Positions 12,531 through 41,506 of a DNA stretch of 64,000 nt are shown in pieces (within the stretch, counting starts at the first letter, position 1; each line of letters starts with the position of its first letter). The position numbers were made by a program, and so were the translations under genes. This DNA comes from Flavobacterium palustre (GTDB lineage: Bacteria > Bacteroidota > Bacteroidia > Flavobacteriales > Flavobacteriaceae): positions 186,001 through 250,000 of the forward strand of contig NZ_BMGA01000006.1 of NCBI RefSeq assembly GCF_014639535.1, written 5' to 3'. The notes beneath the pieces are model-generated. The model worked only from the letters and a program-made list of their open reading frames with translations. It was not told the DNA's origin and did not search any database.

Positions 12531-12595
12531 CAATGTTAGCCAGAAAAATAATTTTAAGCGATAAATTATAATGCAATCAGTATAAATTATCGCCC
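12531..12595 (-). promoter_or_regulatory. Promoter with 21-bp-period direct-repeat operator (GH127 operon)
   Basis: Read on the + strand, GATAAATTAT (12560-12569) and TATAAATTAT (12581-12590) repeat at exactly 21 bases, followed by CGCCC. On the - strand a -7-like element TAACATTG (12531-12538) lies exactly 21 bases from the repeat. The same arrangement precedes three other transcription units in this window. The element lies about 120-190 bases upstream of the start codon. The gap 12409-12712 otherwise holds only the terminator of the next gene. Confidence 0.75.
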
Positions 12596-12653
12596 TTATA
12601 CTCTATAAAAGCGCGCAAATACAGCCATTTATCCATTCATCTCACACCATCAT

Positions 12654-12690
12654 AAAAAAAGCAGCTAAACTTTACTGCTTAACTGCTTTT
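12654..12690 (-). terminator. Terminator of the lyase/GH97 operon
   Basis: On the - strand an aaaagcag/ctgctttt stem with an 18-base loop is followed by a run of seven T. It lies 22 bases after the stop codon at 12713 and closes the eight-gene operon that starts at 26983. Confidence 0.8.
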
Positions 12691-12712
12691 CTTTTTTAGA
12701 CGCCGGAGCGAA

Positions 12713-14323
12713 CTATTTCTTAATCCAAAAACATCGCTCGACAGGTTCAGCCGATTGTAATTGACCCGCAATTCCATATTGCCAAGCTACTACTGTTACT
12801 TTGATTGGGAAATGAGTTCGAGGTGGAATTTTAGTAAAATATAGTACATTACCTTCTACATAAGCCGGCCCCTCTTTTACATAATAATTTACTTTTGTCC
12901 CCGCACTTGATTTTGCATTTAATGCTATTTTTTTTATTCCAATTGCAATATCATTTATCTGTGCAAAATCAATCTGTTGGGGTGTTCCATCTTGATTTTT
13001 AATTGGAAATCGCAAATGCAACTGCTGTACGGCACATTTATAAACGGCATCACCATCATTGTGCGCCAAAAGCCAAATATCATTACTTCGTTTACTATTA
13101 TTAAAACCCAGTTTATCAAATCTGATTTGGAATGTGGAATCATTGATTTTTTTGACCGGGCCACAAATTCTATCAATTGAAAGTGGCGTTTTTGCAAAAT
13201 CAGAAACCGGTTTTAACCTTAAACTATCTGTAAAAAAAGCTTTTAAAGTAAAAGAAATACCATCTTGTAAAGGCTTAAACTTTAAAGCATAATTAGCATG
13301 ACTCTTATCTGGCTGAACTATTTCTCCGTCTTGTATTAAACCAATGTATTGCATTTTCTTGCCTCTGGATTTCGCATAAAATTGTTCCGTATTTTTTGCC
13401 ATATTTTTATCAAATACCCAGGAAGCGGTTTTTCGTTCTCCTTTAAAATGAGCAAATGAAGCGGCTTTTGCCTGCGGAATAGAATCCTGACTCCATTTGT
13501 CCATCAACCAGCCTGATTCCGGCTTTACAGGTTTAAGTTTTGGAACTTCGGTAAATAAATTTTTAGCAGGAAGCCTTCTTTTAGCCACTTCACGAATATA
13601 ATTGGCCACATATTTCACCATAGCATCCGAATAATCAAAATGACCATGTCCGGCATCGGCAAATAAGGTAATCACACTTTTTGGATGCTTTTGAATATAA
13701 GCGTAAGCCGGTTCTATCCTTTTCTCCCACCATTCATATTCTCCCATTATAAACAAAGAAGGGATTCCGTCTATATTTCGATTTCCCCAGTCGGGATTAG
13801 GCTTACCGCTTCCGGTCAGATTCGTTTGTGGGGCATCCCCATGAATTGAAACTAAAGCTAATGTGCGTTGGGGATTAAAAGCAGCAAAATTCCAGGGAAA
13901 ACTCGCCATTGCAGAATGTCCAATGGGTACAATAGGTGCATTAGCTAATTCCTGATAACCTGAAATATTAGCCAATTCCTGAAACATTTCTGAGATAATC
14001 TTATCCTCTCCTTTGGTCGTATCATACATCCAACTCACCACCGGTGTTACCCAAACTTCGGCAAAACCCAATTCGGCCATTACTTTTCTGAAATAGGCAT
14101 GCTCCAAAATCCCTTCTTCGATCATGTTATGTTGTCCGAAAATAATTCCTTTGACCTGTTTGCAATTCTCAGGAATCCATAAATAAGCCTGTGGATGCTG
14201 TTTGGTTTCATCAGAAATCATTCCTTTTACCGGAATACTCCATTGCCAAACCTGCGCATAACTGTTCAGACAAAATAAACTGAAACAAAAAATGAGATAA
14301 TATATTTTTTTCACCTTGACCAT
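12713..14323 (-). CDS. Secreted two-domain alpha/beta hydrolase, probable carbohydrate esterase
   Basis: A 536-residue protein with a signal peptide (cleavage near NSYAQ). Residues 40-255 form an alpha/beta hydrolase: IIFGQHNM oxyanion region, nucleophile elbow IGHSAMAS near residue 133, an acid after FIMGEYEWW, and histidine in ADAGHGHFDYSD near residue 222. The C-terminal half (about 300-536) is beta-rich and unassigned; it may bind carbohydrate. The gene follows GH97 by 2 bases and ends the operon. I do not recognise a characterised family; a glycan deacylase acting on the same polymer is inferred from context. Confidence 0.55.
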   Translation of the reverse strand: MVKVKKIYYLIFCFSLFCLNSYAQVWQWSIPVKGMISDETKQHPQAYLWIPENCKQVKGIIFGQHNMIEEGILEHAYFRKVMAELGFAEVWVTPVVSWMYDTTKGEDKIISEMFQELANISGYQELANAPIVPIGHSAMASFPWNFAAFNPQRTLALVSIHGDAPQTNLTGSGKPNPDWGNRNIDGIPSLFIMGEYEWWEKRIEPAYAYIQKHPKSVITLFADAGHGHFDYSDAMVKYVANYIREVAKRRLPAKNLFTEVPKLKPVKPESGWLMDKWSQDSIPQAKAASFAHFKGERKTASWVFDKNMAKNTEQFYAKSRGKKMQYIGLIQDGEIVQPDKSHANYALKFKPLQDGISFTLKAFFTDSLRLKPVSDFAKTPLSIDRICGPVKKINDSTFQIRFDKLGFNNSKRSNDIWLLAHNDGDAVYKCAVQQLHLRFPIKNQDGTPQQIDFAQINDIAIGIKKIALNAKSSAGTKVNYYVKEGPAYVEGNVLYFTKIPPRTHFPIKVTVVAWQYGIAGQLQSAEPVERCFWIKK

Positions 14324-14325
14324 AT

Positions 14326-16275
14326 TTACTTTTTGACAACTTCAGTAATAATTAAGGCTACACCACCGGAAGCTTTAACATCAAAACTCAAAACTTCTCC
14401 TCCTTTAATCTTTTGTTCTGAAACAGCTACTTTAGTACGCGTTGCTACTTTGTCATCATCCTGAAATGATTTCACTACATATTTTTTCCCTTTAACCAAA
14501 AAGGCTGTTGGAATAGTTATTTTACGTCCTTCATTATTCGTAATTCCGCCTACAAACCATTCTTTTCCACTTCTTCTGGCTACACTAATGTATTTACCCA
14601 CTTCCCCATTAAGTACTTTGGTTTCATCCCAAACCGCTTTTACTCGATCAAAAAACTCAATCTCCGGTTCTCCTTGATATGCAGAAGGCTGATCGTACCA
14701 ATACATAAATTGAATCGGACTATAATACACCGCTGCTAATGCCAATTGGTGAGCATGTGTATTTTTTATTCTCTGGTTATAATATGCAATCGTATAATCA
14801 GCCGGTCCTGCTAAGAAACGTGTAAAAGGTAAAATAGTATTATGATCTGCATCGGGCATTTCTTCGTTTCCACGAATTCCTTCCTGCGTCATTAAATTAG
14901 GGTAGGTACGACTGAAGCCTGTTGGACGGTATTCATCATGAATATCCACCATTAAACCGTATTCTGCACATTTTTTTACCGCTTCATGCATCCAAGTTGA
15001 CCAACGCTGATTGCCTACCTGCACAAATCCAAATTTAATTCCTTTCAATCCCCATTTTTTATATAATGGTAAAATCGAATCCAATTGCTGAATCAGGGCA
15101 CGCTGATTGACATACACCCAAAGTCCAATTCCTTTTGAAGCGGCATAAGCTGTCAATTCAGGCATATTGAAATCTTTAGTTTCAGAAACCGTTGTCGCAT
15201 CGGAACTCATTTTCATCTCCGGTCCATACCAACCTGCATCTAAGTGGATGTATTGTAAACCATGTGCGGCAGCAAAATCAACACATTTTTTAGCATCTTC
15301 CTGAGTCAATTTAGCCACACGAATCACTTTCCCTGGTTTGATCCAAGAGGGATCCTTAATTTGATTTTCCGGATTAAGATTCAAAATGATTGTATTGTTT
15401 TTAATCAAATCGATATCCTTATCTGCAGCCATAATCACACGCCAAGGTGTACTGTAGGCAGGAATTACATCCACACTGCTGTATAAAGACGCCTGTAAGG
15501 TATTTGGTTTTGTTGCATTTAAACTAAATTTCATTCGGGCATAATCAATCATTTGTGCCTCAGCAATGGCTACTGACAAGCCGTTTGTCAGTTTCATAGT
15601 TAAAGGGCGTTCACTTTGCCCTTTCCAATCTTTAAGCGGCAATAACGAATAAGGGCCTTGTGCCCAAGGTTCGTAATAAGCCAAAGTTCCTTCGGGCATC
15701 GTAAACTGGGTTTGTTCTCCTACAATATGGAGAAATAAACCGTTTGAAGGCTCTGGAAAATGATAACGAACTGCTACACCTTCATTATAAGCGCGAACCA
15801 CTACATTCATAAAGTAGCTTTTGTTCTTATCGTAACCATCTGTTAATTTTTGATTATCCAAATCTCCTTTTCGAAAAGCGATGGTCATTTCATTATAATT
15901 ATTGCTTATGGTTGAATTTTCACCATATACCGGTTTCCAAGATGAATTTATCTCCTCTCGTTGAATTCCTGTGAAATTTAGATTTTCACCCCATACTTTA
16001 CAACTGTCATTAGGAATACCCAATGCCGATTCGAAAGTCTGATTTTCTATCAAAACACCCAGTTCAGACTCCTCTACAACTTTTTTCCCTTTGAAAAAAA
16101 GCGTATAATACATTTGTTTCTCTCCCGCATTATTCAGCTTTTGATAAAAAGCAAATTCATAAGCACCGTTTGGCGAATTCAGTTTTTGAACGGTTGCTTC
16201 AATAATAGACTGCGCCTGAATAGTTAGAGTACACAGGAGTAACCCCAGTAAATGATAAAATTTGTTTGTTTTCAT
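14326..16275 (-). CDS. GH97 family glycosidase
   Basis: A 649-residue secreted enzyme (signal ending at TIQAQS) with the SusB-like layout: N-terminal beta-sandwich (to about 280), (beta/alpha)8 barrel (about 290-560) and C-terminal beta domain. Signatures seen are HLDAGWYG, KKWGLKGIKFGF, HDEYRPTGFSRTYPN near residue 447 and EGIRGNEE. GH97 contains calcium-dependent alpha-glucosidases, alpha-galactosidases and a beta-L-arabinopyranosidase. The position that carries the nucleophile Asp in retaining members reads Gly here (KFGF), and the HEx position of SusB reads HDE. The linkage is therefore uncertain. It sits between a decayed gene fragment and the terminal hydrolase. Confidence 0.85.
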   Translation of the reverse strand: MKTNKFYHLLGLLLCTLTIQAQSIIEATVQKLNSPNGAYEFAFYQKLNNAGEKQMYYTLFFKGKKVVEESELGVLIENQTFESALGIPNDSCKVWGENLNFTGIQREEINSSWKPVYGENSTISNNYNEMTIAFRKGDLDNQKLTDGYDKNKSYFMNVVVRAYNEGVAVRYHFPEPSNGLFLHIVGEQTQFTMPEGTLAYYEPWAQGPYSLLPLKDWKGQSERPLTMKLTNGLSVAIAEAQMIDYARMKFSLNATKPNTLQASLYSSVDVIPAYSTPWRVIMAADKDIDLIKNNTIILNLNPENQIKDPSWIKPGKVIRVAKLTQEDAKKCVDFAAAHGLQYIHLDAGWYGPEMKMSSDATTVSETKDFNMPELTAYAASKGIGLWVYVNQRALIQQLDSILPLYKKWGLKGIKFGFVQVGNQRWSTWMHEAVKKCAEYGLMVDIHDEYRPTGFSRTYPNLMTQEGIRGNEEMPDADHNTILPFTRFLAGPADYTIAYYNQRIKNTHAHQLALAAVYYSPIQFMYWYDQPSAYQGEPEIEFFDRVKAVWDETKVLNGEVGKYISVARRSGKEWFVGGITNNEGRKITIPTAFLVKGKKYVVKSFQDDDKVATRTKVAVSEQKIKGGEVLSFDVKASGGVALIITEVVKK

Positions 16276-16285
16276 TTTTGTTTTT

Positions 16286-16444
16286 TTATTTTGTTATTCT
16301 AAACCAGTCAAAATCGGCATAGTCACCTATTCTGACCTTCGGTTCACTTATGATAATAATTCTGTTTTGGTTAAAATTCGTAGGCTCCTTAGTTGTCCCA
16401 TAAGGCTCAACGTTAAAATTGACACTAACTTGACCAAAACTGAA
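16286..16444 (-). pseudogene. Remnant of a GH43-type gene C-terminus
   Basis: The - strand encodes about 52 open codons ending in ISEPKVRIGDYADFDWFRITK and a stop. This closely matches the end of the intact GH43 at 17910-19565 (ISQPNVRMGGYADFDWFRITK). DNA similarity is strong over about 60 bases (16289-16350 against 17913-17974), then fades. The frame is closed upstream by a stop codon and has no start. It is best read as the tail of a duplicated or deleted GH43 gene left in the 198-base gap between GH97 and the beta-helix gene. Confidence 0.7.
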
Positions 16445-16473
16445 TTAATAACCCATTCAATATTAATATCCAC

Positions 16474-17898
16474 CTACCATTTACCTCTTCCACTCATCAT
16501 TTTTACCTCACTATTTTTTAACTCTGGAGATATTGATTTTATATCAAGGTTTTTCGCTTCATCGTTTTTGATAATCAGTTTATTTTCTAATTCATTAATT
16601 AACATGATATTTTCAGCTTCCATAGGTCGAATGGCAGAACTCATTTCTGCATGAGCCGGCATTCCAAATCCCAGCATAATAGGTAAGGCTGGTGTACTTA
16701 TTTTTGAATCATTAGTATAAAGCCTTATACGATGATTTTTACCTGCAATAGTTGCAATAGTATGTACTAAAGATTTAGGCATAGAAGGTATTAGTTCTAA
16801 TTCGACATCAGTGCCTATGGTATTTTCACGAAGATATAGCAGTGGTCCGTATTGAATATCACCTCTGCAATTTCGCACAAGTACATTTGATCCCAGTAAA
16901 AAAGCACGTTCTGTACCAATGGCCTGACATCCTTGAAGTTCTGTACGATTTACAGCATCATTAGTACCTCCAATTTCGAAACCTGAACGCGTGTTTTTTG
17001 CAATACAATTACGAAGTGTCACTTTACCAACCCCTCCATAGGTACGAAAACCATCCTCGCTCAATGATTTTGTATATCCAGGACTTATCAAATAATATCC
17101 ATCACGGTTTTCATACACGCTGCGGTAATTTAACTTTTCTGCAAGCCCCCCTTTTTCAGCTAAAATATCGTCTGTGGTTCGCATTGCCCCCTCAGCATAA
17201 CAATCCTCCAAGACAATATCTCTTGTATCATGACCTTGGGTTTGAATGTAAAAACAATGCCCAAATGCACGGCTAAATACTTTACATCGCCTTAAAATAT
17301 TGTTTTGACCGGCAACCATTATACCGCTTTGTTTTTGAAGTGTAGTCAGCACTGGCCCTCCTTTTCCAAACAAATCACCATAACCATAGGTAGAACCACT
17401 TACATACAACATAACGTCTTCTAATACCGTATTGTTACCAAAAACAGAGAGAATATTACCGTTACTACCTATATCAGGAGATCCGGTATTTTTTATTGTC
17501 AATCCTTTTAAAGTATTACCGTTCCCATCAATAAAAAGGCAGCGCATATAACCATAAGGCAATTCTTTGTATAATTTAGTATCAATTTCTATTGTAACTC
17601 CTGTAAAGTCAAATGTATTATTGTTTCCACTAAATCTTAAAAACCAGCGAGGCGGACGCTTTTGCTGCTCTGTTTGTACAGGTAGCTCTGTTAATAATTT
17701 AGCAATCCGGTCACTATTCAAAAAATCGGCTAAATCATAGACTCCGGGTTTCATACGAATTTGTTGTCCATTTTTAGACGCAAGCTGTACCAAAGCTTCG
17801 AGAGTTTCAATTTCTTTAATTCTATTCTTTGCCTGAACAGTAATCAAAGTAGAAAAAAACAACAAAACACATAAAACATCAATTCTTTTTATTTTCAT
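16474..17898 (-). CDS. Secreted right-handed parallel beta-helix protein of unknown specificity
   Basis: A 474-residue protein with a signal peptide (cleavage near TVQAK). After an N-terminal segment (LEALVQLASKNGQQIRMKPGVYDL, typical of pectate-lyase-like folds), repeated short beta-strand rungs follow: NNTFDFTGVTIEI, GNTLKGLTIKNTG, NNTVLEDVMLYV, NNILRRCKVFSRA, RDIVLEDCYAEGA, GKVTLRNCIAKNT. This is a right-handed beta-helix, the fold of PL1, PL6 and GH28 enzymes. A conserved-looking FGHCFYIQTQGHDTRD lies near residue 215. I cannot place it in a defined family. Its operon (lyase, GH28-like, GH43, GH97) suggests a lyase or hydrolase on the same glycan. Confidence 0.6.
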   Translation of the reverse strand: MKIKRIDVLCVLLFFSTLITVQAKNRIKEIETLEALVQLASKNGQQIRMKPGVYDLADFLNSDRIAKLLTELPVQTEQQKRPPRWFLRFSGNNNTFDFTGVTIEIDTKLYKELPYGYMRCLFIDGNGNTLKGLTIKNTGSPDIGSNGNILSVFGNNTVLEDVMLYVSGSTYGYGDLFGKGGPVLTTLQKQSGIMVAGQNNILRRCKVFSRAFGHCFYIQTQGHDTRDIVLEDCYAEGAMRTTDDILAEKGGLAEKLNYRSVYENRDGYYLISPGYTKSLSEDGFRTYGGVGKVTLRNCIAKNTRSGFEIGGTNDAVNRTELQGCQAIGTERAFLLGSNVLVRNCRGDIQYGPLLYLRENTIGTDVELELIPSMPKSLVHTIATIAGKNHRIRLYTNDSKISTPALPIMLGFGMPAHAEMSSAIRPMEAENIMLINELENKLIIKNDEAKNLDIKSISPELKNSEVKMMSGRGKW

Positions 17899-17909
17899 TA
17901 CTCCAATTT

Positions 17910-19565
17910 TTATTTTGTTATTCTAAACCAGTCGAAATCGGCATAGCCTCCCATTCGTACATTCGGTTGACTTATGGCAAAAACTCCAATTTTGGCAGAA
18001 ATCCATAAATCTTTTTCAGCTATAGCTTCTTGCCCAATGAAAATAAAATCAATTCCATTTTCACTATAACTAAACCTACAGGCAGCATTGGGAGCTGAAA
18101 TTTTCATTCGCAATTGCACTTCGTTCGATACCAAAGGCTTCTCTTCAATTATTTTTTCCAATGTCCCTTCATTGGCATTGATACAACTGATTTGCTGCAC
18201 CCAATATTTCCCATCATGATAGGCAATTGCAGCATAAGCATACGATTTCCCCATTAACAACAAGCCTGCTTTTTTACCTGGCGTATCCCATTCTGTAGTC
18301 AATTTCACTTTGGTTGTTGCTGTAAAATTAGGTGCTGGTAATTTTTGCAATAAAAGATTGGGCACATTCCAAAGGTTGGGTTCCTCCTTCTGGCTTATTG
18401 TAAAAAGTCTCAAATAATCTGTTCCCGGAATTTGAGCACTCCATTTTACCGAACTATTAGCATACCATTGCCATTGTAAACTAGGCTTCCCATTACTAAA
18501 TTCATCACTTTCAACAGGATGCATAATTGGTAAACTATTGTCGTTTACTGGTTTCACCCCAGAAAGTATCGGTTCTCCTACGTCATTTCCATCAAAATCT
18601 TTTCCGATTAAAGGCCAATTATCTTTCCATTGCATCGGTTGCAAATGCAATACGCGCCCATAGACTCCCTGATCCTGAAAATGCAAGAACCAAGAATTAT
18701 TATCAGGAGTCGTAACCCAAGCTCCTTGATGTGGTCCATTTATTTTTGTACTTCCTTGCTCCAACACTATTTTATCTTCATAAGGCCCATAAATATTTTT
18801 GGAACGCATCGCGACCTGCCAACCTGTCTCTACTCCTCCTGCCGGAGCAAAAATATAATAATAGCCGTCTTTTTTATACAATTTAGGCCCTTCCATAGTG
18901 TGATGATGGTCGTGTCCATCAAAAACGTTTTGCCCTTCATCCAGTACTTTTGTTCCTTCGGGATTCATTTTATTGATGGTCAGTACACTGTTTATACCAG
19001 CACGACTTCCTGCCCAGGCATGAACCAAATAGGTGTTTTCTCCTTCCCAAAGCGGACAGGGATCTATGATTCCTTTTCCTGCCATTACTAAAACTGGTGC
19101 TGACCACTTGCCATAAATATTTTTGGTTTTAACCATATAGACACCAAAATCAGGATCTCCCCAATAGATATAAAATTCACCTTTATGGTAACGAATTGCA
19201 GGAGCCCAAACGCCTTTACTATGTTGAGGAATATTAAAAACTGCTTCAGGAATTTGTTGCTCCAAAGCATAGTTGACAATCTGCCAATTCACCAAATCCT
19301 TAGAATGCAAAATGGGCAAACCCGGAATACAGTTAAAACTACTGGCCGTCATATAATAATCCTTCCCTACCCGAATTACATCCGGATCGGAATAATCGGC
19401 ATACAAAATTGGATTGGTGTACGTACCATCACCCCTATCAGATTGCCAAACTTGCGAAGTATAATTGCCTTCCTGTACCTGCGATTCGGTTTTTTTAACC
19501 AATGTACAGGCACCAAAAGACAAGCCTAACACTAATATATATGTATATTTATTTTTAAAAATCAT
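17910..19565 (-). CDS. GH43 glycosidase lipoprotein (beta-xylosidase/alpha-L-arabinofuranosidase type)
   Basis: A 551-residue lipoprotein (lipobox LSFGAC, no acidic export signal, so probably periplasmic). The five-bladed propeller contains the GH43 triad: base Asp in ADYSDPDVIRVG near residue 60, modulating Asp in GIIDPCPLWEG, and acid Glu in TMEGPKLYKK. The C-terminal region (about 345-551) is the GH43-associated beta-sandwich ending in YADFDWFRITK. Family members release xylose or arabinose from side chains. Gaps of 11 and 27 bases to its neighbours place it inside the operon. A decayed copy of its 3' end lies at 16286-16444. Confidence 0.85.
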   Translation of the reverse strand: MIFKNKYTYILVLGLSFGACTLVKKTESQVQEGNYTSQVWQSDRGDGTYTNPILYADYSDPDVIRVGKDYYMTASSFNCIPGLPILHSKDLVNWQIVNYALEQQIPEAVFNIPQHSKGVWAPAIRYHKGEFYIYWGDPDFGVYMVKTKNIYGKWSAPVLVMAGKGIIDPCPLWEGENTYLVHAWAGSRAGINSVLTINKMNPEGTKVLDEGQNVFDGHDHHHTMEGPKLYKKDGYYYIFAPAGGVETGWQVAMRSKNIYGPYEDKIVLEQGSTKINGPHQGAWVTTPDNNSWFLHFQDQGVYGRVLHLQPMQWKDNWPLIGKDFDGNDVGEPILSGVKPVNDNSLPIMHPVESDEFSNGKPSLQWQWYANSSVKWSAQIPGTDYLRLFTISQKEEPNLWNVPNLLLQKLPAPNFTATTKVKLTTEWDTPGKKAGLLLMGKSYAYAAIAYHDGKYWVQQISCINANEGTLEKIIEEKPLVSNEVQLRMKISAPNAACRFSYSENGIDFIFIGQEAIAEKDLWISAKIGVFAISQPNVRMGGYADFDWFRITK

Positions 19566-19592
19566 TCTCTTAATTTCTTTCGAATTCCTCCC

Positions 19593-20795
19593 TTATTTTA
19601 TTACCTTAACTTCTAAAGGATTAGCTATAATTTTTGCTTGTTTATCAAGCATTTCATCCCAGTCCATAACATCTCTAATCTGTTTACTTCCTGTCCAGGC
19701 AAAACCAGCATAATAAGTTATTTTGTTATCTGGATTAGTTAATATTAATAAATTACTTTGATCGGCTGTTTTGGAATCATGAACAAAAGCAGTATCAATC
19801 AATTTAGGACTTAAAATAATCCCTTCTCCTACAAAAGCACTATCAATAGGTTCCCAATGACGAAACCATCCCTTAGGTTTGTTGATATTCACTTCTCCTT
19901 TTTTATCATGAAGCGTAATTCCAACGGTATAATTAGGGATCCTTTTATTTGAACGATAACTAATTTCAAATTTTGAAAAATTGGAATCCAAATCCAGTGA
20001 AATTCTTTTTACTTCCTGAACACCGTAACTACTCCACGGCGCATAAGTCAATTCAAAAACAGTTCTCAAAGGTCCGGTAGCAATGGTTTTGTAACTCACA
20101 TAATTTTTAGATACCTGTAAACTATCTTTTTCCCAAAGTCCTGTACCACCTGTACCACGACTGGCACCTACATGGTAAGGGTCATAACCTTCACCATGCT
20201 CAATATGGTAATATCCCGGATTGGCTACGTTCTTTTTGTACCAACTATCAATAATGGAATAATCTACTTTTTTTAACCATAAGTCGATTCCACTGGAAAG
20301 TGTACCTCCTTCTTTGCCCTGCTCTACTAATTGCTGTGCGACAGGACCATAAGCTCTGAATGCCACCTTATTATTTTCCCAGGCATAATCGTCAATTCGT
20401 TCCGGTACAAAACGCGAATAGGTTTTCGCCTTTGGCTCAGCTACGGCTACAGTATCTATTAAAACAACATATTTGGACGTTGCATTTGCGACTACATTAG
20501 CCTGAAAAAGCAACTCATCACCTAATCCATCTCCATCATTATCAACCCATTGCGTTACTAAATATTGATCAGCTCCCTGCTCTTTGATACGAATGTTTTT
20601 TTGGTCGTTTTTATCTAAAAGGGCTTGCAATTTATTACGTTGCAGGCTAATAATTTCATTACGGCTAAACCCCAATGTATTTTTTATTTCAATATTAATT
20701 TCTTCACGTTTATCCGTTTTTGTACAGGCTGTTAACGACATCAAATGGAAGAAACTTATTGCCAGTAGGCTACTTTTAAAATACTTGTATTTCAT
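19593..20795 (-). CDS. DUF4861 family lipoprotein
   Basis: I choose the ATG at 20795 (400 residues, MKYKYFKSSLLAIS...). The upstream ATG at 20837 would overlap the preceding gene and push the signal sequence inward. A lipobox (MSLTAC) follows. The remainder matches the DUF4861 family, which is found almost only in Bacteroidota glycan loci. Visible features are VDNDGDGLGDELLFQ near residue 70, FRAYGPVAQ near 135, HIEHGEGYDPYHVGASRGTGG near 195, and GWFRHWEP near 305. The fold resembles a large beta-sandwich. Catalysis on an acidic oligosaccharide is plausible, but I know no settled function. Confidence 0.65.
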   Translation of the reverse strand: MKYKYFKSSLLAISFFHLMSLTACTKTDKREEINIEIKNTLGFSRNEIISLQRNKLQALLDKNDQKNIRIKEQGADQYLVTQWVDNDGDGLGDELLFQANVVANATSKYVVLIDTVAVAEPKAKTYSRFVPERIDDYAWENNKVAFRAYGPVAQQLVEQGKEGGTLSSGIDLWLKKVDYSIIDSWYKKNVANPGYYHIEHGEGYDPYHVGASRGTGGTGLWEKDSLQVSKNYVSYKTIATGPLRTVFELTYAPWSSYGVQEVKRISLDLDSNFSKFEISYRSNKRIPNYTVGITLHDKKGEVNINKPKGWFRHWEPIDSAFVGEGIILSPKLIDTAFVHDSKTADQSNLLILTNPDNKITYYAGFAWTGSKQIRDVMDWDEMLDKQAKIIANPLEVKVIK

Positions 20796-20805
20796 AATAT
20801 TTATT

Positions 20806-27204: not shown

Positions 27205-27269
27205 CAATATTAGTAAGAATAGGGCTTTTTAAAGATAACTTATCATTCATTTACTATAAATTATAAACC
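27205..27269 (-). promoter_or_regulatory. Promoter with 21-bp-period direct-repeat operator (lyase operon)
   Basis: On the + strand GATAACTTAT (27234-27243) and TATAAATTAT (27255-27264) repeat at 21 bases, followed by AAACC. On the - strand TAATATTG (27205-27212) lies exactly 21 bases away as the -7 element. Predicted leader of about 215 bases. The remaining gap (26984-27419) also holds a leader hairpin and the terminator of the preceding gene; nothing else is seen. Confidence 0.75.
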
Positions 27270-31697: not shown

Positions 31698-31902
31698 TGG
31701 TTGGTTTTAGATATAAATTCATATTTTTTTTGGTGGTTTTAGTTTTCTATTCAACTCATTATTATCAAGTTGTATTTATTTTCATCATCTCATTTTGAAA
31801 TTAAATCAATATGAATGACATACCAATTAAGTTTAATTTTTATTTACCATAGGCATTTTGATTTTTGATTATAGCATTGTATTATCTTCATTTATTTACA
31901 AT

Positions 31903-31967
31903 CAAAAATACCTAGATGAATTCTTCTTGAATACTAATTATCAACCATTATATATAAACTATCATCC
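31903..31967 (-). promoter_or_regulatory. Promoter with 21-bp-period direct-repeat operator (T9SS lyase gene)
   Basis: On the + strand a weaker half-site TACTAATTAT (31932-31941) and TATAAACTAT (31953-31962) repeat at 21 bases, followed by CATCC. On the - strand TATTTTTG (31903-31910), a perfect TAnnTTTG, lies exactly 21 bases away. Predicted leader of about 200 bases. The gap 31698-32173 otherwise holds only a terminator. Confidence 0.7.
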
Positions 31968-33583: not shown

Positions 33584-33700
33584 AGTTTGACTCTGTTTTT
33601 TTTTTTATTATAATTTTCGAAATTAAAATTAAAAACAAACCCATCGGTGTAATTTTAAAAATAATTACAGCAATGGGTAGTTAAAATTATTGGGACAAAT

Positions 33701-34981
33701 CTACTCTACGCTATATAATAAAGTTCCAAATCCTAAATCATCATATCCTCCACTATTTGGGTTCAAATCACCACTACCTCCTTCCGGGTAACCTACATCT
33801 TTGGCCATTTTTATATAACGGGCCTTTATTCCTTTATCTTTTGTATAATGATTGTATATTCTTTCCCATACTGGTCTAATTTGTCCTCGTCCTGCGTCAT
33901 CAGCAGCTGTAGTATGTGTCACATTAGCACAGTTAGTATAAGTTTTAAAAGGTACATTTAATCTGGCAACATTGTATTTAGCCACATATTCAGCCCCTTT
34001 TAAGATCATATTGTCATTATAACCATAAATATCTAAACCTTGATTTTCTCCCATTTGAGCAATAGACCCCAATAATCCAATGACCATTAAAGTATGCCCT
34101 TGATCACGACCTGATTCCTGAACCTGTCCTAAATCAATATCATCATTGGCTGTTTTAGGATGTATGTAATTAATAGCTTTTAATAATTGCCCATTTCCTG
34201 CTCCTTTCATCAGGTAATTAATTGCAAAGGTGTACATAGGAACATCATCATTCAATACTGCTATAGACATAACAGAAGCTAAATTACACAAATCCCAATT
34301 TGCCCAATAATGAGTAATACAAGCATTATTATGTCTGTCTAAAAAATCTTTGTTTACCGGATAAAAAACATCTACCATCCATTTTTTAAATTTTGCTAAA
34401 TCAGTGGCATTCCAACCTGAATAATCACGCATAATTTCGGCAGCATTTGCAAATTGATAACCATAAATTCCTGCTCCCAATGCCTTATTAGAATCACCAC
34501 TAATAGACGTACAGGTAGCAGCCCAAGCATTCAAAATTTGAATCGATTTATTGGCATAAGCTACATCTCCGGTAATTTTCCAACGAATTGCTGTTAAATA
34601 GGCTGCATGAGCATCTTCCATAGCAGCTCCGTAATTATCTGGTAATGGTTCTTCTAATGAACCTCCTCCTCTAATCAATTTTACAACAGGCCCTTTCATC
34701 ACGTAAGTAGCTGAAGCATGGTTATTAGAAATCATTTTATTATATCCCGAAATCCAAGGATCGATCTGATTATCAACCTTTGTTTTCATTCGGTCAAAAT
34801 CAGCTTGGGAATGTAATAAACCAGGGTGCGCAAAAACCATATTAGTTGGAACTGTAATTTCTTCTATTACTGTCCCTCCTTCTACTTTTTTCTCAGGTAA
34901 GCCATAATCATAACTGCATGCAATAAATGTTAACGAACTTATTGCCGCTATTGCTATTTTAGTTTTTATATTTTTTTTCAT
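33701..34981 (-). CDS. Alginate-lyase-like (PL) lipoprotein
   Basis: A 426-residue lipoprotein (lipobox TFIAC followed by SYDYG, compatible with surface export). One (alpha/alpha) toroid of the alginate lyase superfamily fills the rest. Motifs shared with the T9SS enzyme at 27420 are HPGLLHSQADFDRM, ANWDLCNLASVM near residue 225, QVQESGRDQGHT near 285, and GQIRPVWERIYNHY near 370. The superfamily includes PL5 alginate and PL38 glucuronan lyases; I favour an acidic uronate polymer but cannot choose. It lies in the SusCD operon, 70 bases after the IPT-domain gene, and probably makes the first cuts at the cell surface. Confidence 0.75.
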   Translation of the reverse strand: MKKNIKTKIAIAAISSLTFIACSYDYGLPEKKVEGGTVIEEITVPTNMVFAHPGLLHSQADFDRMKTKVDNQIDPWISGYNKMISNNHASATYVMKGPVVKLIRGGGSLEEPLPDNYGAAMEDAHAAYLTAIRWKITGDVAYANKSIQILNAWAATCTSISGDSNKALGAGIYGYQFANAAEIMRDYSGWNATDLAKFKKWMVDVFYPVNKDFLDRHNNACITHYWANWDLCNLASVMSIAVLNDDVPMYTFAINYLMKGAGNGQLLKAINYIHPKTANDDIDLGQVQESGRDQGHTLMVIGLLGSIAQMGENQGLDIYGYNDNMILKGAEYVAKYNVARLNVPFKTYTNCANVTHTTAADDAGRGQIRPVWERIYNHYTKDKGIKARYIKMAKDVGYPEGGSGDLNPNSGGYDDLGFGTLLYSVE

Positions 34982-35051
34982 TTTAGTTTTTTTTTATCTT
35001 TTGAAACTAAACCAGAAATATTATATCTATTTCTGGTCTAGTAATTACTAT

Positions 35052-36221
35052 TTATAAACCAAGGAATGCCTGAAGTTCTGCTTTATTTTTAAAGGTACGA
35101 ATCCAATCTACTTCATAACCAGTCTCAGAACCTACTATATCCGCTATTTTAAACTGTCTTGTAGTTAACTCCGTTTCAGTTAAATAATCCGCAGATAAAT
35201 CATAATAAATTACATTTTTAGAAATATAATCGGTTTTATATTTATTATTACCCGCATTAATTCCTCCGGCAACAGCAGGATCTAATACTATATTACCGGT
35301 TCCAGGTTTATAACTTCCGGTTCCTGTAAAAGTAATTTTCATTGCCAGAATAGGATAGTTAGGTGACTGAACCCATTTTGTTTTTGCTGTTCCACCAGGA
35401 TAAGGGAAAACACCATTAATACTATAATATAAATCGGCACGACGTTTACTTGCTGAAGTTCCTAATTGTGCTGGATCAAAAGTTACTTTCAATTTTCCAT
35501 CTTCAATTTTATAAGTAGCGTTTTGAGCCGGCATCCATTGAACATCTGTAGCATCATCAAATTCAAATATATATTTACCTTTTGGAGGTGCAATAACTGT
35601 AAATTCAGGACCGGTAATAATTTGATTTTCTAACCAAACACGTACTTTTCCGGTTACCGCCCCTTTTGGGATTAATACAGCTATTTGTGTATCAGAAACT
35701 GATACAACCTTTGCAGAAATAGCATCTTTTGTTAAACCATTTGAAAATTTAACTGAAACCTTTGACAAATCTGTACCAAAGCCCTGTCCAGAAATTTGAA
35801 TTTGATCACCTACATTTCCAGTAGTTGGTGAAACACTGCTAATAGTAGCTCCTGCTACATATTCAAAATCTGATGTTTCAAATGTATTAGTCCACACTTT
35901 TACTTTTATTGGTCCAGTACCTGCATTTTGAGGTACTCTCACAGTAACCGAAGTATCAGTATAACTTATAATTTCATCGGCAAGAACACCATTAAAATAA
36001 ATTTTTGCAGCTTGTTGATAATTCCCAAAATTAGTTCCTGTTAAAGTAACTATGTTACCTGATGTTCCCGTTGAAGGAGAAACAGTAGTTACTGTTACTG
36101 CCGGATACGTAACCAAAGGGTCTCCGCTAAAATCCTTTTCCTGATCACTACAGGAAGCCATTAGTACCATACTAAATAGTACTATTGCAGCTTTTATTTT
36201 ATTTTTTATAATATGATTCAT
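35052..36221 (-). CDS. Surface glycan-binding lipoprotein with two IPT/TIG domains
   Basis: A 389-residue lipoprotein (lipobox LMASC followed by SDQEKD, a typical surface-export signal). Two IPT/TIG immunoglobulin-like domains (about 41-125 and 127-212) start with SPSTGTSGNIVTLTGTNFG and SPTTGNVGDQIQISGQGFG. The C-terminal 170 residues are a DUF4979-like module (NYPILAMKITF, VIYYDLSADYL, RQFKIADIVGSETGYEVDWIRTF). It takes the SusE/SusF position after SusD. It probably holds the glycan at the surface, with the C-terminal module as the binding domain. The same module occurs three times in the T9SS enzyme at 27420. Confidence 0.8.
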   Translation of the reverse strand: MNHIIKNKIKAAIVLFSMVLMASCSDQEKDFSGDPLVTYPAVTVTTVSPSTGTSGNIVTLTGTNFGNYQQAAKIYFNGVLADEIISYTDTSVTVRVPQNAGTGPIKVKVWTNTFETSDFEYVAGATISSVSPTTGNVGDQIQISGQGFGTDLSKVSVKFSNGLTKDAISAKVVSVSDTQIAVLIPKGAVTGKVRVWLENQIITGPEFTVIAPPKGKYIFEFDDATDVQWMPAQNATYKIEDGKLKVTFDPAQLGTSASKRRADLYYSINGVFPYPGGTAKTKWVQSPNYPILAMKITFTGTGSYKPGTGNIVLDPAVAGGINAGNNKYKTDYISKNVIYYDLSADYLTETELTTRQFKIADIVGSETGYEVDWIRTFKNKAELQAFLGL

Positions 36222-36246
36222 AATCTTATAATTTTAAAAGTACTAA

Positions 36247-38025
36247 TTAATAACCTGGATTTTGCAACAACTTGGTATTTAACTGCATTTGTGTTGTTGC
36301 TATTGGGAACAAATAATTTTTACGTTGAAAATTTCTATTAGCCACCGGATCTAGTAATAAAGCTCTTAAATTTCCTTTTCCTGTAGTAACGGATAATTCG
36401 CCATAAGGATAAGACGCTGGTTTGTAGATTGCAGTGTTACCCTCGTAATCAGTTCCTTGAACAACTGAACCTAGAATAGGCTCGTTTAATACTTGCTCAG
36501 CTATACCCCATCTTTTTAAATCATCATAACGACTATTTTCTCCAAACAACTCAATAGCTCTCTCTCTTCTAATTTCGTCTAACATATTCAAATTATTAGC
36601 CAATACAAAAGCATTTGTCAAAGCTGGAAGTCCCGCTCTTTGTCTAATCAAATTTACTGATTCATTTAATTGAGCATCAGTAATTGTTCCGTTCAATTCA
36701 TATAAAGCCTCAGCATACATTAAATACACTTCAGCTAAACGAATTTGAGGATAATCAGCTGACTCAGTATTAGCAGCTCTATAGGTTCCATATTTATAAG
36801 CTCTAAATTTTCTGTTTGTATAACCGGAACCACTATCTCCCCCTGGACCAAATAATTTCACAGCTCCAGAAGCAGGAGCTGCATCAGTCGTTGGATCATT
36901 AAAATAAGCATTTAATCTATAATCGCGGTTTTTATACTCATCACCCACTTTTACATATCCTTGAAATAAAGGCGATTTATTAACCGGCAAACCGTCTGTA
37001 CAAAGAAACAGATCCATGAATTTTCTAGATGGAGCCAATCTTGTACCTACAGTATGACTTAAGTTGATACCTCCTTGTAATAATCCGAAATCGTATTTAT
37101 TATAAAGAATAAACTCTTTGTTAGTTGATTTATCCAATCCGGCTGGATTTGAACCTGCATCTTCAAGATTAAACAAATAGTACATACTATTGTTATTCAA
37201 TTGAGAATTATAATTCCATAACTGATAGCCTCCATTACTCATCACATCTTTAGCTAATGTAATTACTTCTTCCAAATAAGCAGTAGTATTTGAGGCAGCA
37301 CCTTCACTTCCGGCACCTGTAGTTACACCATCACCATCAGTTGTAGTACCCACATATTTTTCCCAAGTAGCTTCATACAGTAATACTCTGGCTTTAAAAG
37401 CTTCTGCAGCCCATTTACTAAGGTGTCCTTTATCGGCTGATGAAATATTTTGTTCCAAAGGTAAATCAGGAATAGCTTCTGATAAATCTTTTAAAATTTG
37501 ATTCATTACTTCATAGCGACTGTTTCTTTTACCATACAACACTTCATCATTAATATCTACCACTGTTGTTACTATTGGTACTCCTCCGTATCTTTTCAAT
37601 AAGAAAAAATGATGCCAGGCTCTAAAAAACTTTGCTGCCGCTACATATTGAGCAATATCCGCTTGATTACCTTGATATTGCGCTGCTGCTTTCAACAAAA
37701 TATTATTATCTCTGATATATTTATAAGGATTTCTCCAATAGATATCAGATATAGGAGCAACGGCATTCCCTCTTCCTTCATCCTGACTTAAAGAAGTTAA
37801 ATCAGTACCAAAATCCATGAAGTTATATATATTACTACCATCAACAGCACGCCAGCTTACCATTTTATTATAAAAATTATTAGATGCTGCTTTAAAATCT
37901 GATGGTGTTTTAAAATAAGAAGCTTCCGTCTGTGTATCCAGAGGATCTAAATCCAAAAAATCACTCTGACAACTAGAAAATAATAATACTGAAGACAGTA
38001 CTAATGTTGTTACTATATTTTTCAT
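36247..38025 (-). CDS. SusD/RagB family glycan-binding lipoprotein
   Basis: A 592-residue lipoprotein (lipobox LLFSSC followed by QSDFLDLDP, the usual SusD start). Helical TPR-like repeats and the SusD signatures are present: TQTEASYFKTPSDFKAA, FRAWHHFFLLKRYGGVP near residue 135, RLAEVYLMYAEALYELNG near 430, and RRERAIELFGENSRYDDLKRWG near 495. SusD proteins form the lid of the SusC transporter and bind the oligosaccharide. The gene starts 19 bases after susC. Specificity cannot be read. Confidence 0.95.
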   Translation of the reverse strand: MKNIVTTLVLSSVLLFSSCQSDFLDLDPLDTQTEASYFKTPSDFKAASNNFYNKMVSWRAVDGSNIYNFMDFGTDLTSLSQDEGRGNAVAPISDIYWRNPYKYIRDNNILLKAAAQYQGNQADIAQYVAAAKFFRAWHHFFLLKRYGGVPIVTTVVDINDEVLYGKRNSRYEVMNQILKDLSEAIPDLPLEQNISSADKGHLSKWAAEAFKARVLLYEATWEKYVGTTTDGDGVTTGAGSEGAASNTTAYLEEVITLAKDVMSNGGYQLWNYNSQLNNNSMYYLFNLEDAGSNPAGLDKSTNKEFILYNKYDFGLLQGGINLSHTVGTRLAPSRKFMDLFLCTDGLPVNKSPLFQGYVKVGDEYKNRDYRLNAYFNDPTTDAAPASGAVKLFGPGGDSGSGYTNRKFRAYKYGTYRAANTESADYPQIRLAEVYLMYAEALYELNGTITDAQLNESVNLIRQRAGLPALTNAFVLANNLNMLDEIRRERAIELFGENSRYDDLKRWGIAEQVLNEPILGSVVQGTDYEGNTAIYKPASYPYGELSVTTGKGNLRALLLDPVANRNFQRKNYLFPIATTQMQLNTKLLQNPGY

Positions 38026-38044
38026 ATTAGTCTTTTTTTAATAA

Positions 38045-41000
38045 TTAAAAGGAAACGTTTAATCCTAAAGAAAAAGTTCTTGTAAATGGATAGATATTAT
38101 TTGAACTATCTCCAAACTCTGGATCGTACCCGTCTTTAACTTTTGAAAATTCAAACAAATCATTACCAGAAAAATAAACTCTGAATTTATCCAAAGCAAA
38201 ATTTCCAATTTTAAAATCACCCAAGGTATATCCAATGATCAACGATTTTAATCTTATATAACGATTATCCTGTAATGCAAAATCATTATTTTGCCAGTTC
38301 CACGCAGCTCTTGTTGTATTAGCAGTCATTCTTGGATAGACAGCGTCTGTATTTTCAGGAGTCCAGGTTTTTCCAATGTAAGCAGTTGTCTGACTACCAT
38401 ATAAGGTATTAAAAGGATAAGATAAGAAACCTGTTCTTAGTACATTTTGTTCCAAAACTCCTTGGAAGAAAGTTGAAATATCAAAATTACGATAGTTGGC
38501 ACTTAAGTTGATTCCATACACATAATGTGCAGCTGTATCTCCCATAAATTTAACATCTTTGACATCTATTTTTCCATCATTATTTAAGTCTGCTCTTTTA
38601 ATATCTCCAGGGCGCAAAGCATTTACTCCTGTAGGAAGTGTAGCATTGTCGTAGGTTGTATAATAATCATCTACTTCAGCCTGTGTTTGGAAAAGTCCGT
38701 CTGTTTGATATAAGAAAATAGCATTCAAAGGATGTCCTATAACTTGAGGTTTCGCTGCACTACCGTCCATAACTCCGGGATTGATTGCTTCAGCATTTTC
38801 TTTTTTAAGTAAAATGTTTCTAGTATCTCCTATATTAGCCGAAATACTGTACTTTAATTTACCTATTTCTCCTCTGTAGCCTAAAATCACTTCCCAACCT
38901 TTTGTTTCCAGTTCACCTGCATTTGTCTTTGGAGCCGTTCCTCCTAATACATCCGGATAAACAATATCAGTCAACATACCTATATTCTTTTTAGTAAAGA
39001 AATCATAGGTTCCAAATAACTTTCTGTTAAAGAAGCTAAAATCAGCACCATAGGTTTTCATTACTACACGTTCCCAAGAATTCTGATTTGAAGTAATCCC
39101 ATTTACCCAACTTGCTGTTTGTTGCGCAGCTGTTGTACCAAAAACAGCGCTACCATTACTAATATTAGAAATATAATCATAAAGTCTAATTCCTGATTGG
39201 GCTCCCATTTCACCATAAGTATATCTTAATTTTAAATTACTTAAGGCTTCAAAATTTTTCAAAAAACTTTCTTCGGATACAACCCATCCAGCTTGTACGC
39301 CACCGAAATTATTCCATTTATTACCCGGACCAAATTGAGAAGACCCATCTCGTCTGCCACTGACTTCCAATAAGTATTTATTTTTATAGGAATAGTTAAA
39401 GCGTGCCAAATAAGAATACAATCCTTTATGTCCTCTACCACCGGTAGCTTCTACTTTATTTTCAATAGACCCCATATTAATATCATAAACTCCATTATCT
39501 ACAAAGCCTAATCTATAACCATACAATCTGGTATCTTCTGTTTTCTCAGCTGTTAAACCTGCAAGAGCCGAAAAATTATGATCACCTATTTCTTTCTCGT
39601 AATTCAAGAAACCACCGTAATTTTGATAAGTTATGTCCTTTTTTTCCTGTCTTATGGAAGAAACCGAGTTTACTGATTCCGGTGCTAATTCACCATACCA
39701 GCTATATTGAGGAACAGTTATGATATAATTAAGATTATTGAAAAAATCTTTATTGTAAGCTACCTTTGTTTGAAAAGTTAAACCCTCATACAATTTAAAA
39801 GTAGCCCCTAAATTCATCATAATTTGATCTCTGGTCGTATTATCTCTACCTCCGTCAACTGTAGCCGCTACGTGATTACGATTACCTGCTATATTAAAGT
39901 TAGCATACCATTGTCCATAAGGATTTCTGGATGGGAAAAATGGAGGATCTTGTGATACCGAACCGTCTAAACCTGAAGAAGGAGAAGAAAGATCATACTT
40001 TAAATAAGACATATTGGTTTCTAATTTCAACCAATCGTTCACCTTATAATCATAATTCAAACGTACATTATATTGTTGTTTTCCATCGTAAGCGGTTTGA
40101 AGCGCACCAAGGTCTTCAGAATATCCATAAGAAACACGATAATTTGTTTTATCAGTACCTCCTGAAATACTTCCGGTGTGAAATGTTGAAACAGAGTTAC
40201 CAAACATCTCATCATATCTTGGAGAATTTGAAATGTAAACATCTCCCCAAAATTGTGTTGAATATATTCCTGCATAACCTGTCTTCATCAACTCTAAGTT
40301 CTCTTTAGATTGCCATCCCCAGTAATTAGCATTTACTCCATCTTGTTCAGCTGCTTCAAGCCATACTGTTGCGTACTGTTGCATAGTAGGAGTTTGCGGT
40401 CTAATCCCTAAAGTATTTACCCTTGTAGTTGTAGCAAGATCAATTTTCATTTTTCCGGATTTTCCTTTCTTAGTTGTCACCATAATTACCCCGTTAGAAG
40501 CACGGGAACCATACAAGGCAGCAGAAGCGTCCTTAAGTACAGTTACCGATTCAATATCGTCCGGATTCATGTTATAGAAAGCTTCACTGTTAATTGTTGG
40601 ATTTCCATCAATAACAATAAGTGGAGAACCTCCATTGATAGAAGTAGCTCCTCTAATTTGTAAATTAAGCCCTTCCCTTCCCGGTCTGGATGAGTTACGC
40701 GTAACTACCAATCCTGGAGTTTGTCCCTGCAAAGCTAAAGCTGGATTTGTAACTGCCCTATCTTGAAATGATTTAGCCGTAACAGTTTCAATAGACCCTG
40801 TTGAAGTCATTTTCTTTTGAGTTCCATAAGCTACCACAACCACTTCTTCTAAAGCTCCAATATCAGATCCCATAGTCACGTTAATCGCTTGTTGTGAACC
40901 CACTTTAATCTCTTGAGTCTTAAAACCCACCGCTGTAAAAACAAGTACCGCATTAGATGAGACTACATTTATTCTATAATTTCCGTCAATATCAGTACTT

Positions 41001-41248
41001 ACCCCTGCTGTTCCCCCTTTTACATTTACATTCACTCCGGGAATTCCTAAACCATCCTCTGCAGAAACTACCTTACCTGTTATTGTAATTTGTTGCTGAG
41101 GAGTATTTAAAGCATATTTTTCACCAAGATTAAGATCCTTATTATTTGCTCCATAGGTTTGGGAAGAAACACAAACCAGAAAAGACAAAACCAAAGACGG
41201 TTTGAGCCTATTCCACAATTCGGTTTTATTCAAAACATTTATTTTCAT
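38045..41248 (-). CDS. SusC/RagA family TonB-dependent outer-membrane transporter
   Basis: I choose the ATG at 41248 (1067 residues), which begins directly with a signal peptide (MKINVLNKTELWNRLKPSLV...); the ATG at 41317 adds 23 charged residues. After the signal comes a carboxypeptidase-regulatory-like domain (ITGKVVSAEDGLGIPGVNVNV, about 53-135). The plug follows (LEEVVVVAYGTQKK, DIESVTVLKDASAALYGSRASNGVIMVTT), then the barrel ending in the aromatic TFSLGLNVSF. It imports oligosaccharides with SusD using TonB energy. It heads an operon controlled from the element at 41442-41506. Confidence 0.95.
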   Translation of the reverse strand: MKINVLNKTELWNRLKPSLVLSFLVCVSSQTYGANNKDLNLGEKYALNTPQQQITITGKVVSAEDGLGIPGVNVNVKGGTAGVSTDIDGNYRINVVSSNAVLVFTAVGFKTQEIKVGSQQAINVTMGSDIGALEEVVVVAYGTQKKMTSTGSIETVTAKSFQDRAVTNPALALQGQTPGLVVTRNSSRPGREGLNLQIRGATSINGGSPLIVIDGNPTINSEAFYNMNPDDIESVTVLKDASAALYGSRASNGVIMVTTKKGKSGKMKIDLATTTRVNTLGIRPQTPTMQQYATVWLEAAEQDGVNANYWGWQSKENLELMKTGYAGIYSTQFWGDVYISNSPRYDEMFGNSVSTFHTGSISGGTDKTNYRVSYGYSEDLGALQTAYDGKQQYNVRLNYDYKVNDWLKLETNMSYLKYDLSSPSSGLDGSVSQDPPFFPSRNPYGQWYANFNIAGNRNHVAATVDGGRDNTTRDQIMMNLGATFKLYEGLTFQTKVAYNKDFFNNLNYIITVPQYSWYGELAPESVNSVSSIRQEKKDITYQNYGGFLNYEKEIGDHNFSALAGLTAEKTEDTRLYGYRLGFVDNGVYDINMGSIENKVEATGGRGHKGLYSYLARFNYSYKNKYLLEVSGRRDGSSQFGPGNKWNNFGGVQAGWVVSEESFLKNFEALSNLKLRYTYGEMGAQSGIRLYDYISNISNGSAVFGTTAAQQTASWVNGITSNQNSWERVVMKTYGADFSFFNRKLFGTYDFFTKKNIGMLTDIVYPDVLGGTAPKTNAGELETKGWEVILGYRGEIGKLKYSISANIGDTRNILLKKENAEAINPGVMDGSAAKPQVIGHPLNAIFLYQTDGLFQTQAEVDDYYTTYDNATLPTGVNALRPGDIKRADLNNDGKIDVKDVKFMGDTAAHYVYGINLSANYRNFDISTFFQGVLEQNVLRTGFLSYPFNTLYGSQTTAYIGKTWTPENTDAVYPRMTANTTRAAWNWQNNDFALQDNRYIRLKSLIIGYTLGDFKIGNFALDKFRVYFSGNDLFEFSKVKDGYDPEFGDSSNNIYPFTRTFSLGLNVSF

Positions 41249-41441
41249 AATGAATTGTTTTTTTTCGTTATTAATTGATTCAGTTATTAGTTTTTTATCA
41301 TTTTTCACATTCATCAATGTGATTTAAAATTAGTTTTTGAAATTTAGTTGGTTTTACATTTAATTATTTTTTACAGGTTAATAATTTTAATACTCATAAT
41401 TTTTAATCGTTAATTTTACCATAATGATTATAATAGCATTA

Positions 41442-41506
41442 CAATATTATAGATTAAAAAAAAAGCAGTGTATAACCTATGATTCAAACAGTATAACTTA
41501 TCGACC
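41442..41506 (-). promoter_or_regulatory. Promoter with 21-bp-period direct-repeat operator (susC operon)
   Basis: On the + strand TATAACCTAT (41471-41480) and TATAACTTAT (41492-41501), each preceded by G, repeat at 21 bases and are followed by CGACC. On the - strand TAATATTG (41442-41449) lies exactly 21 bases away as the -7 element. This is the strongest of four copies and lies between susC and the HTCS gene. Leader of about 190 bases. The rest of the gap 41249-41705 shows only the HTCS terminator. Confidence 0.8.

Follow-up and report, generated by a model that had tools for sequence, protein, structure and literature searches.

The closest described counterparts of the sites reported here are the operators of hybrid two-component system (HTCS) regulators in Bacteroides. 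Ravcheev et al. (2013) predicted direct repeats with an average period of 21 bp for 16 such regulators, and a dimer lying on one face of the DNA was proposed for them (PMC3878776). HTCS_Hep, HTCS_Man, HTCS_Rgu and others are alike in having 12–16-bp repeated sites before operons of polysaccharide utilisation loci (PULs), beside the HTCS gene; the SusR-like operators of the same study are direct repeats with 67 or 77 bp between centres (PMC3878776). Chromatin immunoprecipitation with sequencing (ChIP-seq) has placed HTCSs at their PULs (PMC3404733), and DNA binding by HTCS fragments, suppressed without phosphorylation, has been reported (PMC11253607). The fragments in question comprise the receiver and DNA-binding domains of BT4124 and BT4663, acting on the bt4114 and bt4662 promoters, which carry predicted sites; contact with the receiver restrains DNA binding as long as phosphorylation is lacking (PMC11253607). 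In E. coli, AraC with arabinose is bound at araI1 and araI2 (PMC4760080, PMC7499043). Here we describe four copies of a repeated operator in a stretch of 64,000 nucleotides from Flavobacterium palustre (assembly GCF_014639535.1, contig NZ_BMGA01000006.1, positions 186,001 to 250,000), called the window below. Very probably they are the operators of one HTCS encoded in the window, which would bind them as a dimer and activate four transcription units together in the manner of a class II activator.

In the direction of transcription the three strong sites read GG-nnn-ATARNTTATA-(11)-ATARNTTAT, followed by 21 bp and then by the -7 box TAnnnTTG (Table 1). When the sequence is read directly at the four intervals, most of what a first-pass annotation of this DNA had claimed is found in every copy: a half-site period of exactly 21 bp, an A at position 2 and CA at positions 5-6 of the spacer, CC three bases past the second half-site, and a promoter box exactly 21 bases before the first half-site (TAACATTG, TAATATTG, TATTTTTG and again TAATATTG on the gene strand). 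Its half-site consensus nATAAnYTAT is strictly kept in three copies, but at 31932 the first half-site is TACTAATTAT (+ strand), with two mismatches. A direct repeat spanning two helical turns had been taken as a sign of an HTCS site, in agreement with the published feature (PMC3878776), and the period of 21 bp in all four copies fits the period of about 21 bp expected of HTCS operators and not the spacing of SusR-like ones. The T of TAnnnTTG is numbered -12 throughout, and the sigma-A box of Flavobacterium psychrophilum, TAnnTTTG, covers -12 to -5 (PMC9723704). With the box at -12 to -5 the predicted starts come out one base away from the values proposed earlier.

Table 1. Predicted operators, -7 boxes, regulator and gene units of the window (position 1 is its first letter)
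Feature	Position	Strand	Remarks
Operator copy 1 (strong)	12560..12595	-	upstream of GH127-GH88-MFS-SDR unit; relatives-only matrix score 40.0
-7 box TAACATTG	12531..12538	-	21 bp from operator 1; predicted +1 at 12526
Operator copy 2 (strong)	27234..27269	-	upstream of eight-gene lyase operon; relatives-only matrix score 36.8
-7 box TAATATTG	27205..27212	-	21 bp from operator 2; predicted +1 at 27200
Operator copy 3 (weak; 2 mismatches, promoter-proximal half-site)	31932..31967	-	upstream of T9SS lyase gene; score 15.8
-7 box TATTTTTG	31903..31910	-	21 bp from operator 3; predicted +1 at 31898
Operator copy 4 (strong)	41471..41506	-	upstream of susC-susD; relatives-only matrix score 37.6
-7 box TAATATTG	41442..41449	-	21 bp from operator 4; predicted +1 at 41437
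HTCS regulator	41706..45980	-	Pfam: Reg_prop propeller sensor, Y_Y_Y, HisKA, HATPase, receiver, AraC-type HTH (helix-turn-helix)
Unit 1: GH127, GH88, sugar-porter MFS (major facilitator superfamily), SDR (short-chain dehydrogenase/reductase) dehydrogenase	7054..12408	-
171-aa PF01050 protein	6521-7036		close after unit 1; may be a member
Unit 2: eight-gene lyase operon	12713..26983	-	one operon by gene spacing
Unit 3: 1425-aa secreted lyase (DUF4979, Alginate_lyase domain, T9SS (type IX secretion system) sorting tail)	27420..31697	-	Pfam
Unit 4: susC, susD, TIG/DUF4979 protein, Alginate_lyase-family protein, perhaps GH28	32174..41317	-

The letters that the first-pass annotation had assigned to the spacer, together with the CC, are indeed conserved, but they are not spacer: CA (+ strand) and CC are the same box, once in the proximal and once in the distal unit. 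The repeat unit is therefore bipartite and 15–16 bp long, with ATAANTTAT standing 3 bp after a box of the TTG(A) or GG type. Of the two units, the distal one spans -69 (G) to -55 (A), and the proximal one begins with TTG at -50/-48 and extends to -34. A bipartite unit of 15–16 bp is what is expected of an AraC-type domain with its two helix-turn-helices, as is established for the family.

How far these letters set the four sites apart from the rest of the genome depends on whether the promoter box is included. Using patterns derived from the sites themselves, the repeat with CC (up to two mismatches) matches five times in the window against a mean of 0.06 in 100 shuffled windows, the five being the four sites and one opposite-strand echo of the first; the repeat with promoter box (up to three mismatches) matches four times, against none in 100 shuffles. 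Genome-wide, only the three strong sites match the repeat exactly. At two mismatches, on both strands, the bare repeat gives 48 matches against 34 for a reversed control, and on this ground it was rejected as a genome-wide detector; the weak site at 31932 is thus indistinguishable from noise by its repeat alone. The operator together with its box (up to three mismatches) has exactly four matches in the genome, all of them the window sites (the weak one at three mismatches), and the control has none. Many matches with the same spacing in unrelated promoters, the outcome that the first-pass annotation had warned of, did not appear in this search. A matrix built from 20 sites in related genomes also ranks the window sites first to fourth, the next score being 10.9. 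One other place, C7:199932 in G000, scored well by composition and was rejected as a simple repeat; it is a short tandem array of AAGTTATGAGTTAT-like units resembling half-sites.

The same arrangement is found in related bacteria. The closest HTCS relatives are those of Flavobacterium seoulense (83%), F. ajazii (72%), F. fluviatile (54%) and two Maribacter (53%), and the other matches among the 80 listed are far lower over the full length. The T9SS lyase was tried as a marker of orthologous loci and given up, as its matches were mostly to single domains or repeats (256 of 299 genomes, few of them informative), and the loci were located by the HTCS protein and the composite pattern instead. With a fixed linker, the repeat plus TTG plus box occurs at ten places in seven of the 299 same-genus genomes and the reversed pattern at none; the ten include two window sites and two copies of a single locus, one at either end of a contig of G349. 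When the linker is left free between 10 and 40 bp the same ten places return with the same linker, and at one of them a second, overlapping box is returned too. A matrix of the window sites stripped of its promoter columns found 24 sites scoring at least 17 in 17 loci (350 kb of relatives), and TAnnnTTG stands exactly 21 bp on in 20 of them, or in 13 of 17 once seven sites selected by spacing are set aside.

The gene context recurs as well. In the window the sites precede susC, lyase and GH127 units in the cluster that holds the HTCS gene, and the same is seen in relatives: sites lie before susC-like genes in F. seoulense, F. ajazii, F. fluviatile, both Maribacter, G340, G415 and G459, before a GH127 or GH88 operon in G510, G349, G340, G459 and both Maribacter, and before a heparinase-type lyase in F. 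seoulense. The search of orthologous loci that the first-pass annotation had proposed thus recovered site, linker and neighbours together, and the motif is conserved alongside orthologous DNA-binding domains in five named loci and six further genomes (G363 is the same record as the named locus L018). In F. ajazii (L021:9700) and G340 (L175:19188) a full operator with box precedes the HTCS gene itself, which suggests that the regulator activates its own gene there. PUL regulators are typically expressed constitutively at a low level (PMC6874557), and in the window no operator was found before the HTCS gene at a score threshold of 8. It is worth noting that the two copies in G349 (L172 and L173) are the same locus at both ends of the 3.85-Mb contig C1, the second with broken reading frames, which looks like an untrimmed circular overlap of the assembly and not a duplication.

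The candidate regulator is the product of the HTCS gene, whose translation likely begins at an ATG 23 codons into the open reading frame (ORF), at 45911. As had been pointed out before, this AraC-type HTCS gene adjoins the copy judged best at first, and the 41471 site lies between it and susC. It is the sole regulator among the 41 ORFs scanned with Pfam out of 57 in the window of at least 100 aa; the other 16 mostly overlap longer ORFs, and six of the 41 have no Pfam match. PDB entry 12aw, a hybrid two-component system protein, matches residues 136-391 of a 397-residue C-terminal query (E 6.1e-55), the shared span being the receiver and DNA-binding domains and the likeness a sequence match only. 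In eight relatives the DNA-binding domain is 67–90% identical, in each case above the value for the sensor domain of the same protein (51–84%), and in six HTCS paralogues of the same genome it is 31–42% identical. We take the position of the recognition helices from what is known of AraC-type proteins. The relatives retain the second predicted helix, FNSTAYF (FNSSAYF in G415), from which every one of the six paralogues departs; they also retain the first, SQFYRKI, but this one turns up in paralogue L184 as well.

The linker between operator and box says something about how such a regulator would work. Across the 24 relatives' sites its best-kept columns, within -33 to -13, are -16, where 23 of 24 have T (1.41 bit), and -31, where 15 of 24 have C (0.99 bit); columns -20 to -18 lean towards A/T (0.48-0.75 bit), and the remaining ones have at most 0.5 bit. 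Apart from the C at -31, columns -33 to -27 hold 0.01-0.14 bit. TTTG is found at -33 in none of the 24 sites, and starting anywhere from -42 to -20 in one, at -29. Conservation in the -7 columns of this 24-site consensus comes from the way in which the sites were selected, and it was excluded as evidence. The T at -16 lies four bases ahead of the -7 box and may be part of an extended -7 element. Two features expected under class II activation, a -33 element that is absent or poor and a fixed distance to the -7 box, are therefore both found: the first in the 24 relatives' sites, the second in all four window sites and 20 of the relatives'.

The order of events can be pictured from the protein family and from this layout. 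An oligosaccharide of the target polymer would meet the periplasmic sensor, leading to phosphorylation of the receiver. Two AraC-type domains would then bind head to tail, each reading one bipartite unit, at about -69/-55 and -48/-34, with two helical turns from one unit to the next. The promoter-proximal unit stops just where a -33 element would begin, and after the fixed 21-bp linker follows a sigma-A-type -7 box. Because the proximal unit ends there and no TTTG occupies -33, the bound dimer would take over the -33 contact and recruit RNA polymerase, and in this way susCD, the secreted lyase, the lyase operon and the GH127-GH88-MFS-SDR operon would be switched on jointly. The suggestion of the first-pass annotation that the site replaces the -33 element fits both the position and the missing consensus, and its proposal of an HTCS dimer acting on four units is supported. 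The layout resembles that of AraC at araI1-araI2, where positions -69/-53 and -48/-32 hold two half-sites two turns apart with the proximal one abutting the upstream promoter element; these positions nearly coincide with the units in the window. AraC, however, is a soluble arabinose sensor that can loop to araO2, whereas the DNA-binding domain in the window is part of a membrane histidine-kinase fusion, and the promoters here are of the Bacteroidota sigma-A type, unlike that of the E. coli system.

Several observations weigh against operators of one activating HTCS at all four sites. Of the 24 relatives' sites, three have no box and a fourth carries it at a linker of 22 instead of 21, and some of the relatives' sites may be non-functional. 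In 12 stretches around other HTCS genes of the same genome the relatives' matrix scores 15.5 at L190:12449, which is boxless, and 17.0 at L194:11928, a simple repeat, so that the letters of the weak site do not by themselves set it apart; moreover, the relatives' sites were found with the window-site matrix, and the two matrices are thus not independent. The palindromic ATAANTTAT could be read by a symmetric repressor, and HTCSs are able to repress too (PMC3404733).

The alternative that survives best concerns the third copy only, namely that the match at 31932 has arisen by chance or is a decayed site, the T9SS lyase gene standing outside the regulon. This is unlikely. In its favour, there are two mismatches in one half-site, equally poor repeats are as common in the genome as the counts above imply, the site ranks fifth in the window when left out of its own matrix, and the two unrelated places just mentioned score alike. 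Nevertheless, the site has its box, both the CA and the CC letters and a linker of the exact length, it is among only four composite matches in the genome, and in G459 (L177:10203) a better site with box lies before a T9SS lyase gene 81% identical over 750 residues. For all four sites it could also be that they are HTCS operators through which the regulator mainly represses or acts both ways, as BT0366 and BT2391 have been reported to do on some of their targets (PMC3404733, PMC11253607). Here the proximal unit ending at -34 and the lack of TTTG at -33 in the 24 sites form the layout expected where an activator supplies the upstream contact, and a mainly repressing HTCS seems very improbable. 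The half-site core is a dyad, and A+T-rich dyads near promoters are common for repressors. Repression by a symmetric regulator of the LacI, GntR or TetR kind, with two dimers on palindromic ATAANTTAT boxes, is nonetheless rejected as highly improbable, since the second box, which is TTG (-50 to -48) in the proximal unit and G (-69) in the distal, is one-sided with its mirror positions unconserved, a mirror promoter box at 21 bp on the other side occurs in none of 28 sites (24 relatives' and 4 window; other-side boxes within 60 bp occur in three, at 51, 19 and 19), no LacI, GntR or TetR gene is among the 41 scanned of the 57 window ORFs, six of the 41 lacking a Pfam match, and the sites track the HTCS across species.

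The proposed activation by an HTCS dimer at a fixed distance from the box raises the question of whether the spacing is a general one. The proposal would be that HTCS operators across Bacteroidota have two units 21 bp apart, whatever the half-site letters, with the proximal end about 21 bp upstream of TAnnnTTG, and that HTCSs are -33-replacing activators with a geometry near that of araI1-araI2; on balance, and with limited confidence, we think that this holds. It was approached by a motif-free test, in which self-similarity upstream of every TAnnnTTG was scored over 45 offsets and 22 lags in non-orthologous HTCS loci; neighbouring grid cells are correlated, and the z values are not to be taken as probabilities. 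In a first set of 598 regions (75 loci and 12 stretches of the same genome, L017-L021 left out) the top cell is offset 21, lag 21 (z 4.68), and when the 20 permutations of the box letters are ranked at that cell the real box comes first, the next reaching 2.39. A second set of 274 fresh regions from 40 HTCS loci in 17 genomes, with no 40-mer in common with the first, has its maximum at lag 21, offset 17 (z 5.04), and 4.23 at offset 21; the real box is again first of 20, with one permutation at 3.49. Strong lag-21 repeats of the first set have a good -7 box at offsets 19-25 in 7 of 235 positions, against 5 of 1012 elsewhere. For lag-22 repeats the figures are 1 of 165 against 8 of 697, no enrichment, and a class with period 22 (24 strong repeats in other HTCS loci) is for this reason not claimed. 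Explicit lag-21 cases with other half-site letters exist, three of them in L065.

There are also points that count against such generality. Two genomes from the same genus as the window contribute 15 of the 40 fresh loci, the average gain is slight (about 5 matching letters out of 15, compared with 4.4), and the box is at the expected place in a minority of strong lag-21 repeats. A subset restricted to susC tops at lag 22, offset 14, in the first set and not at the cell (21,21), and at lag 21, offsets 18-20, in the fresh set; each rests on 16 boxes and both are too small to weigh. A one-by-one search for operators of the other HTCSs of the genome, in the 12 stretches, gave poor candidates only and none is claimed. 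An HTCS locus of a gammaproteobacterium, Alteromonas sp. KUL42 (L067), has a candidate lag-21 repeat before a TAnnTTTG-like box, perhaps by chance or through a transferred PUL.

The genes concerned are all on the - strand, and the four units that the first-pass annotation had placed under the sites (GH127-GH88-MFS-dehydrogenase, eight lyase genes, the T9SS lyase and susCD) are right in outline, GH standing for glycoside hydrolase. For the dehydrogenase of unit 1, at first named kduD, the NCBIfam gluconate 5-dehydrogenase model scores above its cut-off and the KduD models score below theirs. Unit 2 encodes a heparinase II/III-type lyase, a beta-lactamase/hydrolase fusion, an unknown protein, a DUF4861 protein, GH43, an FdlA-like protein, GH97 and another unknown protein. 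Its heparinase-type lyase matches Uly1040 (9vtk, 2.5e-26), presumably an ulvan lyase from its name, and another protein of the unit matches fucoidan lyases (7xzf, 1.6e-40; FdlA, 7xza, 3.3e-40). In unit 4 susC probably starts at an ATG 23 codons into its ORF, and the GH28 gene, which follows a 117-base gap, is perhaps a member. Since the Uly1040-like and fucoidan-lyase-like proteins are accompanied by GH127, GH88, GH43, GH97, GH28 and proteins of the alginate-lyase family, a polymer that contains uronate is the probable target. Upstream of the HTCS gene, positions 46465-63949 have a xylan-type look, with two GH10, GH115, GH43, GH8, several esterases and GFO/IDH/MocA; the matrix scan of the window found no operator copy there, so this cluster seems to be separately regulated. 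At 46108-46132 a hairpin, CCCGATAC...GTATCGGG, with flanking A and T runs probably serves as a terminator that separates the HTCS gene from the gene upstream of it.

Compared with what has been described, the operator set belongs to a known kind and is well supported, and the general rule attached to it is possibly unreported. The Bacteroides operators belong to another genus and other PULs, and the likeness is one of geometry (PMC3878776). BT4124 and BT4663 have the same domain order as the HTCS in the window and serve PULs different from the one here (PMC11253607). In the main text of Ravcheev et al., as far as it was available, no position relative to a -7 box or start was found, and Additional file 2 of that paper may allow it to be read off (PMC3878776). 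A fixed distance between operator and -7 box for HTCSs was likewise not found in the literature searched, from which supplements and most subscription papers were absent.

The four units form a complete candidate regulon for one HTCS outside the gut Bacteroides, and the positional rule is directly testable on existing maps of transcription starts. If it is general, HTCS promoters and their starts could be located in any genome, even where the motif is not known beforehand. Many orphan HTCSs would then gain predictable promoters, and there would be a simple design for glycan-inducible promoters in Bacteroidota.

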